20,914 nucleotides of DNA. It comes from Saccoglossus kowalevskii. Its lineage: Eukaryota > Hemichordata > Enteropneusta > Harrimaniidae. Below the pieces are notes generated by a model, which made no database searches, was not told where the DNA came from, and saw nothing but the letters and a program-made list of their open reading frames with translations. Below, piece after piece: positions 510-16,713 of this stretch. The translations under genes were made by a program, and so were the position numbers. Numbering within the stretch: position 1 is the first letter of the stretch; every line of letters starts with the position of its first letter. The stretch is from assembly GCF_000003605.2 (NCBI RefSeq), contig NW_003132864.1, positions 33,785 through 54,698 on the forward strand, given 5' to 3'.

Positions 510-551
510 ATTGAGCCACAGTCCCTTGACATGGAGGGACTGTGATTGAGC
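510..551. mobile_element. Tiny palindromic insertion A (28 bp) with 7-bp target duplication
   Basis: A 28-bp unit at 517-544 has 10-bp perfect inverted ends, CACAGTCCCT and AGGGACTGTG, around an 8-bp centre. It sits between two exact copies of ATTGAGC (510-516 and 545-551). A unit with the same ends and same length lies at 7129-7156 between copies of a different 7-mer. This is the expected look of a target-site duplication made by a transposon end or its excision scar. No transposase is present. It lies 340 bp before the glycosyltransferase start. Confidence 0.75.
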
Positions 552-7121: not shown

Positions 7122-7163
7122 ATTGGATCACAGTCCTTTATGATAGAGGGACTGTGATTGGAT
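7122..7163. mobile_element. Tiny palindromic insertion B (28 bp) with 7-bp target duplication
   Basis: A 28-bp unit at 7129-7156 begins CACAGTCC and ends GGGACTGTG. It is bracketed by exact copies of ATTGGAT (7122-7128 and 7157-7163). Length and ends match insertion A at 517-544, while the inner bases and flanking 7-mer differ. That argues for separate insertion or excision events of one family rather than a duplication of the locus. Confidence 0.75.
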
Positions 7164-8928: not shown

Positions 8929-9519
8929 CGGGTCATGTGTAAGGAGAAATAAACAAAGCACTAGTCTAAGAAAAGGATGTCTGAAAAACGAGAAGGTCTC
9001 CAACTTATGACAAGTGAAGTGAGGATATAATATGCGGGGCATGTCCAAACAGGAAAATCCTTTGCTCCGTACACGGACGATGGACTAATTCTCGACGTGC
9101 CCAATCTTGATCGGCGAATATTTTTATCAAAATTTCGTAAACTTTCGCTATATTTTTGGAATGGTGACGCAATTAATCGTACATTACCAATTCATTGTCT
9201 TGTTGACCGTGTGGGATTTTAATAAAACAATGGGTTTTATTGGCTAAAGACTTTATCACATCGTCCGTGGTATTCGAAGGGCGGTACAACTGGTGACAAT
9301 TGATATTTGCATATGAATACCACAGGCTCGGGAAGGTCATGCCGTGGCAACTGTGTTAACAAATGAAAACGAGGCATTTTAGTAATGAGTTGCTGAAAGA
9401 GTACAGTGGGGTGCACAGTCAGCAGTGTGAAACGAGCTCCGTATAAGTGAACAAGACATACATTGATCGTGTCCACGATTTTTTGTCCTCGTATGCTCTG
9501 CAAAGGGCCAACCGACAAA

Positions 9520-10926
9520 ATGGAGACGGCCCTGCTCCTGGCAGCATTTATACAAGGACTGGTCATAGCTTCAGCCCGTTTGCCGACATTTACCACAAGA
9601 CCGAGCGACACGCAAACGGTGGAGGGTCGGACAGCATTGCTGGAATGCGTAATAGAAGACACCTCTCGGCGACACTACGCGCAGTGGATTAAAGGTGGAA
9701 ACAGTGGAAAGGCGATCAGCTCGAACTACACCATCAATACCGCAAGACTCGTCAATGAGCTTGACATTATGGAGCCTCTCCGTTATCAAATAGTAGGGGA
9801 TTTCAGCCTCGGCGAGTTCAATTTGCAGATTGTGAATACCGTAAACGCACAGGACGATGACACCTACCGGTGTATAATCGCCGATATGTACGGCCCGGTA
9901 TTGTTTTCTAATGAAATACACTTGTCCGTCGCTAGTCCGTCGGCCGAGCAATATCCACTCTGTCTTCCGTCGACGATACAGTCTCGATACATAGAAGACG
10001 ATGTACTATCAACGGAGTGTATATTTCGACACGGGGATCCGTCGGTACATTTGAAATGGACGTACGGTGGGGCAACCTTTCTCGGAGATAGAAAATATTC
10101 AACTTTACCGGATATTCGCCGTGACTGGGGACTGACTGCCGACGACGATGGCGCTGTGTTTACCTGTGAGGCTATTAGTAGCACTTTTTCTGAGCCACAG
10201 AAATGCCAGATCGGACCGATAACGGTGATGTACGCACCCAAAGTCTACGTTGAACCCGCCTCAATAACGTTGGCAACAGGTGAATCGGTGATGTTCACTT
10301 GTTCCGCGGCCTCCAATCCGACCCCCTCCGCGTACGTATGGGAAATCAACGGGAACGTTGTTATCCAAGCGTCGAATAAATATTCCTTCTCCGAAAATGG
10401 GAAATATTTTACAATTGATCACGTCAGCTCCGATGAAAATGGCATCTCTGTCACATGTGTGGCCGCCAACACCATCGGACTCGGAACATCATCTGTGCCG
10501 GCTATTTTACTGGTTGAAAATGAAGATGACACAAAAGACGAAACACAGACGGACATACTCACGACTGATTCAAGCCACATAACAGGGAGCACTGGAAACG
10601 ATAGGACGTTGACGATAATAATAGTTGCATCAGCAACAGGAATAGCTTTGATATTTCTCGTAGTTGTACTCATATTTTTCAGAAAAACAGTTCTTAATTG
10701 CTGTAGGACAGACTCGAAGGGAATATGTTGGAAAGCGACGAAAGTCGAGAAAAAAACACCTGCAAACAACGAGATGCGATTTTCTAATCTCGCCGAACTC
10801 AGCAGCATGATCTCGTCCAGTTTGAAACAGAAACAGTTGGACGACGAATGTACGACGGACTGTCAAAAAACCGATGACGGATCGCCGGTTCCCAGTCCGT
10901 ACACAACGGATGTCACAATAGTCTGA
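9520..10926 (+). CDS. Immunoglobulin-superfamily single-pass cell-surface protein, three Ig domains, PDZ-ligand tail
   Basis: The 468-residue product has a signal peptide (1-19, ending A-S-A). Three Ig domains follow: Ig1 C43-W56-C118 with DDDTYRC; Ig2 C167-W180-C216 with DDGAVFTC; Ig3 C261-W274-C313. Ig2 is flanked by C148 and C229, a possible extra disulfide. The linker YAPKVYVEP (238-246) is typical of nephrin/Kirre-type Ig chains. A sequon lies at N69. A Thr/Asp-rich stalk leads to the membrane helix (363-387), then C394-C395 and an 80-residue Ser/Thr-rich tail. The last residues, T-I-V, fit a class I PDZ ligand. The layout resembles nectin/CADM adhesion molecules and is shorter than five-Ig Kirrel. 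The ATG at 9520 has A at -3 and G at +4; the in-frame ATG at 9493 has a poor context and would bury the signal peptide. It is likely an adhesion or recognition receptor in one exon; its partner is unknown. Confidence 0.93.
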   Translation: METALLLAAFIQGLVIASARLPTFTTRPSDTQTVEGRTALLECVIEDTSRRHYAQWIKGGNSGKAISSNYTINTARLVNELDIMEPLRYQIVGDFSLGEFNLQIVNTVNAQDDDTYRCIIADMYGPVLFSNEIHLSVASPSAEQYPLCLPSTIQSRYIEDDVLSTECIFRHGDPSVHLKWTYGGATFLGDRKYSTLPDIRRDWGLTADDDGAVFTCEAISSTFSEPQKCQIGPITVMYAPKVYVEPASITLATGESVMFTCSAASNPTPSAYVWEINGNVVIQASNKYSFSENGKYFTIDHVSSDENGISVTCVAANTIGLGTSSVPAILLVENEDDTKDETQTDILTTDSSHITGSTGNDRTLTIIIVASATGIALIFLVVVLIFFRKTVLNCCRTDSKGICWKATKVEKKTPANNEMRFSNLAELSSMISSSLKQKQLDDECTTDCQKTDDGSPVPSPYTTDVTIV

Positions 10927-16686: not shown

Positions 16687-16713
16687 GTTAGCCCACAGTC
16701 CCTGTGGTTAGCC
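16687..16713. mobile_element. Tiny palindromic insertion C (13 bp) with 7-bp target duplication
   Basis: CACAGTCCCTGTG (16694-16706) is bracketed by exact copies of GTTAGCC (16687-16693 and 16707-16713). The repeat may be read as 8 bp by sliding one C. It keeps nine bases of the left end and four of the right end of the CACAGTCCC family seen at 517 and 7129, as a trimmed excision scar would. Confidence 0.65.

Follow-up and report, generated by a model that had tools for sequence, protein, structure and literature searches.

What leaves a short sequence between two perfect copies of a 7-bp direct repeat, at three separate places in one stretch of a hemichordate genome? The window analyzed here, a stretch of 20,914 nt from Saccoglossus kowalevskii (GCF_000003605.2, NW_003132864.1:33,785-54,698, forward strand), contains three sites, A, B and C, that are alike in build: each has a core that starts with CACAGTCC and finishes with TGTG, set between the two copies of an exact 7-bp direct repeat. 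On the evidence of this one assembly, we consider it highly probable that all three are scars at former donor sites of a transposon of the P superfamily with ends beginning CAC(A/C)GTCCCTC; site A itself is very probably an end-joined P-superfamily excision footprint. In the following list the repeat copies are named as target-site duplications (TSDs) and the retained pieces of transposon end as stubs.

510..516, unstranded: left TSD copy of site A, ATTGAGC (read in the sequence and in the scan for ends and flanks)
517..544, unstranded: excision scar core of site A, 28 bp (from the stub assignment)
517-526, unstranded: left stub of site A, 10 nt of the CACAGTCCCT end
after 526 and before 532: 5 nt between the stubs of site A
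532-544, unstranded: right stub of site A, 13 nt, CACAGTCCCTCCA end type
545..551, unstranded: right TSD copy of site A, ATTGAGC
7122..7128, unstranded: left TSD copy of site B, ATTGGAT
7129..7156, unstranded: excision scar core of site B, 28 bp; its left stub is CACAGTCC, 8 nt exact, followed by 4 nt before the right stub
7141-7156, unstranded: right stub of site B, 16 nt, CACAGTCCCTCTATCA end type
7157..7163, unstranded: right TSD copy of site B, ATTGGAT
16687..16693, unstranded: left TSD copy of site C, GTTAGCC
16694..16706, unstranded: short 13-bp scar of site C, CACAGTCCCTGTG; a 10-nt left stub and a 5-nt right stub overlap at a common CT
16707..16713, unstranded: right TSD copy of site C, GTTAGCC

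The initial annotation had placed a 28-bp unit exactly between two copies of ATTGAGC and two more units between 7-mers of their own. Both descriptions are borne out, at 510-551 and at sites B and C, and all the repeats are exact; on direct reading, the repeat extends to 8 bp at none of the three sites. It had also judged such flank matching to be unlikely by chance, an assessment that holds in the window and, as described below, in mismatched flank pairings across the genome. When the window is scanned for ends of this kind flanked by exact 7-mers, A, B and C are the only matches; none of 20 single-base shuffles gives a match, nor does the reversed window. Exact 7-mer repeats in general are found at a spacing of 28 at 3 of 20872 window positions, two of which are A and B, and at a spacing of 13 at 4 of 20887 positions, one of which is C; the word CACAGTCC is present five times, against 0.40 expected from 100 shuffles. 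The window also holds a glycosyltransferase-like frame at 887-2167 (Gly_transf_sug, E 1e-8), with site A lying about 340 bp upstream, and a frame with an immunoglobulin domain at 9463-10926 (Ig_3, E 8.2e-19).

The search was extended to the assembly that contains the window, which comprises 572 Mb in 4830 contigs. A genome-wide search with comparison of the flanks had been proposed with the initial annotation, and it bears the pattern out: CACAGTCCCT-N4-16-AGGGACTGTG is found at 357 places, and the reversed-pattern control at none. Flank and stub statistics refer to 50 listed sites of the 357 (loci L001-L015 and L088-L122). The 7-bp flanks of these sites show no mismatch at 35, one at 9, two at 2, three at 2, five at 1 and six at 1, that is, at most one mismatch in 44/50 and more than one in 6/50. 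When left and right flanks were paired between different sites, 0 of 2450 pairings were exact and 1.1% had one mismatch. Exact matches of length 5, 6, 7, 8 and 9 were found at 1, 0, 35, 0 and 1 of the 50 sites, respectively. One of the sites with three mismatches, L103, has two tandem left stubs, and its 7-bp repeat is exact when the outer stub is used. In the 44 sites whose flanks differ by no more than one base, the 7-mers show a bias to T at position 2 and to A at positions 5 and 6.

The length of the duplication bears on the possibility that the scars are footprints of another cut-and-paste superfamily with a CAC start, for example a RAG/Transib-like or hAT element. The first bases of the ends, CACAGT, resemble the RAG signal heptamer, which speaks for such an origin. 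The target duplication is 5 bp in RAG/Transib elements and 8 bp in hAT elements, whereas it is 7 bp here, with a match of exactly 5 bp in only 1/50 listed sites and of 8 bp in none; both are rejected because of this duplication length. The scars also retain up to 17 nt per end, which to our knowledge is a property of neither group, and an element with homologous ends encodes P-type transposase domains. We therefore regard footprints of another superfamily as extremely improbable.

Cores vary in both length and composition. They measure 13 bp at site C, 24-36 bp in the 50 listed sites (the range allowed by the pattern) and at least 37 bp elsewhere. Their ends belong to three related types, CACAGTCCCTCTATCAC, CACAGTCCCTCAACACC and CACAGTCCCTCCACAAG; the two ends of a core were assigned to different types in 7/50 listed sites, several of these stubs being too short for a secure type call, and at some loci one side of the core is nearly absent. 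The exact repeats at A, B and C and the many genomic places would also be expected if a palindromic unit of about 28 bp were a mini-element in its own right, inserting with 7-bp TSDs, but this spread of core lengths, the three end types and the one-sided cores speak against it. The 17-nt limit and the end-like inserts described below are, moreover, properties of joined overhangs and not of a copied unit, and we consider a mini-element very unlikely.

The length of end sequence retained on each side gives insight into how the scars may have formed. Measured from the outer end, stubs range from 10 nt (the pattern minimum) to 17 nt over the 100 sides of the 50 listed sites; 16/100 sides stop exactly at 17 nt and 0/100 are longer. 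Fourteen of these 16 sides belong to the first two end types, for which the intact continuation is known: it can be read at both termini of the long element described below and at one terminus of the small elements. The third end type is known to 17 nt only, and its 9/100 sides here and 5/60 sides in the longer cores cannot exceed 17 nt by construction. The opposite end of the small elements diverges from the CCGGT end type after 14-17 nt, so that longer stubs of that end would escape recognition; support for the 17-nt limit comes from the CCGGT-type ends and from core length. With regard to core length, 357 places are spread over the 13 lengths from 24 to 36 bp, against 52 places over the 30 lengths from 37 to 66 bp (spacers of 17-46), and some of the latter, such as C310, enclose a shorter core that belongs to the 357. 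In the 30 of these 52 longer cores whose sequence was read, 59/60 sides retain at most 17 nt. The exception, at C1346, has 30 end-derived nucleotides on one side; an internally deleted element is the better reading. The initial annotation had assumed 14 bases retained per end; the retained length in fact varies, up to 17 nt per side.

These measurements also bear on whether the cores are extreme internal-deletion derivatives, produced by gap repair or inserted as tiny elements, and not excision products. Internally deleted elements do exist in this genome, and the 30-nt side at C1346 fits such an origin; deletion breakpoints, however, would be expected anywhere, yet 159/160 sides stop by 17 nt (14 of them capped by construction), and the number of places falls beyond a core of 36 bp. 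We consider this origin very unlikely. The 17-nt stagger of the P transposase is known from Drosophila biochemistry, and the scars, as distinct from the enzyme itself, indicate from sequence alone a probable 17-nt staggered cut in another P lineage, one with 7-bp TSDs.

We propose that the scars arise as excision products in the following way. The transposase would cleave one strand where the element begins and the opposite strand 17 nt inside it, so that each side of the break would carry a 3' overhang made of 17 nt of transposon end. These would then be joined by the host through an alternative, polymerase-theta-like form of end joining, where we infer the role of theta. The overhangs may anneal at microhomologies of 1-2 nt, or be extended by copying of end sequence, and trimming and ligation would then fix a short imperfect palindrome between the two TSD copies.

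Judged by their letters, the junctions look like the products of end joining. In 24 of the 50 listed sites the two stubs account for the whole core, without overlap in 16 and with an overlap of 1-2 nt in 8; the remaining 26 need 1-11 further bases. The inserts in the 30 longer cores match end sequence over a mean of 6.8 nt, against 3.9 nt for shuffled inserts, and several are near-complete second copies of an end. Particular products recur in the genome. A 17-nt stub joined at a common AC to ACTGTG is found at 40 places (control 0), of which 9 lie in or touch a dispersed repeat and one is an end of the L042 element. The exact 13-mer of site C, in which 10 nt are joined at a common CT to CTGTG, is found 91 times (control 4), in some cases inside longer scars such as L124.

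Ends of the scar type are also found on small elements flanked by 7-bp TSDs, four of which are as follows.

L042: element of 318 bp, TSD ATTTCAC
L071: element of 330 bp, TSD GTTTGAG
L072: element of 259 bp, TSD ACTATAC
L066 and L082: element of 616 bp, TSD GATACAT

Beyond nucleotide 17, the sequence at one end of the small elements is typically CGGTCTGGAAACG, of which variants are seen. One terminus of the 318-bp element (L042:52-114) leads into a unit of about 60 bp that forms tandem arrays elsewhere in the genome. A 2.4-kb end pair at L041 was considered as a full element and dropped, as it reads as two separate scars, of which one has an exact repeat and the other an imperfect one. A possible second P-type family is seen at L038:3120-7452, where 4333 bp are bounded by identical 16-bp inverted ends CAAAGACACTAGAAAA with flanks GTTTGCC and GTTTGCA.

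A long relative lies at C1630:10113-18054 (L029, L085). It measures 7942 bp and has perfect 30-bp inverted ends CACCGTCCCTCAACACCCGGTTAAGAAACG, which are similar to the CACAGTCCCTCTATCACCGGTCTGGAAACG of the small elements; a CACAG version of the C1630-type end is present at C1346. Its plus strand encodes the RNase H N-terminal domain PF21787 (E 1.1e-27), the GTP-binding insertion PF21788 (E 3.7e-6 and 6.7e-5, the latter just under the cut-off) and the RNase H C-terminal domain PF21789 (E 1.2e-6), with weak similarity to 6p5a, a P transposase of known structure (E 0.0048). P-superfamily ends start with CA, as do these inverted repeats, and an RNase H domain with a GTP-binding insertion is likewise a feature of the superfamily. 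The TSD of 7 or 8 bp that characterizes it is exact at 7 bp in 35/50 listed scars and in the four deleted elements; the C1630 copy is without one, and its flanks AGTGGGT and GCAATAC do not match. This copy may be rearranged. Because its flanks mismatch and its ends read CACCG, we treat C1630 as a relative and not as a proven parent. The N-terminal THAP DNA-binding domain of the superfamily was found neither in the open reading frames scanned nor by a C2CH signature scan of 12 loci, where introns or decayed frames could hide one. Just outside the 7.9-kb element, L085:507-1073 contains a PHD-finger-like frame (PF00628, E 0.00022, slightly under the cut-off).

The other strand of C1630 carries a second gene, with the start MSWKFNEDFVGFDDEDIDWD and a C2H2 finger, followed by a 323-aa frame for which neither Pfam (to E 1) nor PDB (to E 10) gives a match. 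A similar second-gene start adjoins the CACAGTCC end at L062, L066, L071 and L077, and in two of the small elements (L071, and that of L066 and L082) the beginning of the second gene of the long element is present; the CACAGTCC ends are therefore tied to a C1630-type element. The P-transposase loci were taken as 12 stretches of about 9.9 kb, covering 13 PF21787 matches, and homologues of the 323-aa frame lie tail-to-tail beside the transposase at 5/12 of them (C1630, C3768, C4066, C2039 and C3427). A search for the parent that started from these loci found, close to a transposase, a single exact GGGACTGTG-type end (L039), about the number expected by chance on a rough estimate, and we give it no weight; the search missed the C1630 ends because they read CACCG.

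Taken together, these data bear on what had been suggested from the window alone. Of the two origins offered there, a self-contained mini-element or the scar of a larger transposon, the scar is favored by the 7-bp TSDs, the 17-nt limit, the junctions and the P-encoding homologue, and the variety of cores tells against the mini-element. The proposed P-superfamily origin is supported by the transposase domains of the homologous-ended C1630 element. The transposon, suggested to have been lost, is not wholly gone, as deleted copies and one long relative persist. A look for full-length elements with a P/THAP9-like transposase had also been proposed; small elements with such ends and a long element with P transposase domains were found, the ends of the latter read CACCG, and no THAP domain was found in the scans described above.

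The number of scars is large relative to the number of recognizable ends. The CACAGTCCCT word is present 4001 times in the genome, against 684 for a control that is itself uneven between strands (525 / 159). Double-ended cores number at most 409 (357 + 52, partly overlapping), compared with 137 ends matching CACMGTCCCTCWAYMMCCGGT (68 + 69, control 0), a count of a single end type; scars thus outnumber the recognizable ends of this one type, for patterns of similar length and with some scars multiplied by repeats. A one-end search for CACAGTCCCTCTATCAC followed by A, C or T gave 138 places, of which 22 loci were picked for reading: 12 carry a scar whose 7-bp repeats differ at no more than one base, 6 mark the termini of longer elements, and the other 4 have no repeat within 60 bases. 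One dispersed repeat holds two of the 12 scars and two of the 4 loci without a repeat. Scar counts do not all represent independent events, because some scars have been copied inside another repeat.

A dispersed repeat with a 21-bp scar is seen at L045, L051, L059 and L060, with only the left flank in common at L051, and one scar has therefore been multiplied by another element. The exact 25-base empty-site pattern for this scar-bearing repeat has no match in the genome. A relaxed search with the joined flanks gave, among the 40 matches listed, 10 that span the whole 158-base query; 5 are longer than the query by 26-28 bases, 4 by 11-22, and one measures 159 bases. The 159-base copy suggests an empty paralogue and is not counted as demonstrated; length alone proves nothing, because the scar-bearing copy at the place of L059 is only 13 bases longer. 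The P-type scar at L079:279-307, which has exact 7-bp repeats, is inside a stretch that runs inward from another P-type element end.

Consideration of these results as a whole leads us to a joint reading that we put forward tentatively, as possible but not as the probable outcome. A two-gene P lineage, with a transposase and a tail-to-tail C2H2-finger gene that perhaps supplies a separate DNA-binding subunit, would have its donor breaks closed mainly by theta-type end joining and not by sister copying; excision would outpace the restoration of copies, and the genome would be an archive of hundreds to thousands of datable repair outcomes on one 17-nt overhang. The scars also make this genome a natural experiment, with one overhang and many germline breaks and rejoinings, whose spectrum of repair (use of microhomology, templated insertion and trimming of ends) can be dated and set against that of other species. 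Past transposition stays on record in the scars even after loss of an element, and short palindromes of this kind are easily mistaken for regulatory sites or mini-elements.

A natural genome-wide set of P-type scars was not found under any title in a limited search of the open-licence literature, which is weak evidence of absence, and the word footprint is absent from the main text of the papers on Galileo (PMC4168063) and on Anopheles P elements (PMC1562414). Galileo, a P-superfamily element of Drosophila, has mostly 7-bp TSDs, as here, but differs in its target preference for GTANTAC (PMC4168063), and its ends are long and internally repetitive (PMC3573991). Zebrafish Pdre2 and THAP9 are alike in having a P-type transposase and internally deleted derivatives, and Pdre2 differs in its 13-bp inverted ends CATACCTGTCAAC and 8-bp TSDs (PMC10983969). 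The P elements and P-MITEs of Anopheles share inverted ends, of 27-31 bp, and MITE derivatives, but have 8-bp TSDs (PMC1562414), as does the P element (PMC7776569). The layout of a C1630-type transposase with its tail-to-tail second gene recalls the convergent RAG1L/RAG2L genes (PMC7204232). A close likeness is to excision of the Drosophila P element, which leaves 17-nt non-complementary 3' overhangs between the TSDs; its repair junctions show microhomology and templated insertion, and end joining was reduced by 30-50% without polymerase theta in one assay (PMC2895639). Those junctions share with the S. kowalevskii scars the 17-nt end stubs between TSDs and the same build, but they were induced in the laboratory at one locus with an 8-bp TSD, whereas the scars described here are natural, genome-wide, flanked by 7-bp TSDs and derived from another end sequence. 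We rate the mechanism of the present case as known, being that of the P excision footprints of Drosophila experiments, and its setting and scale as new.
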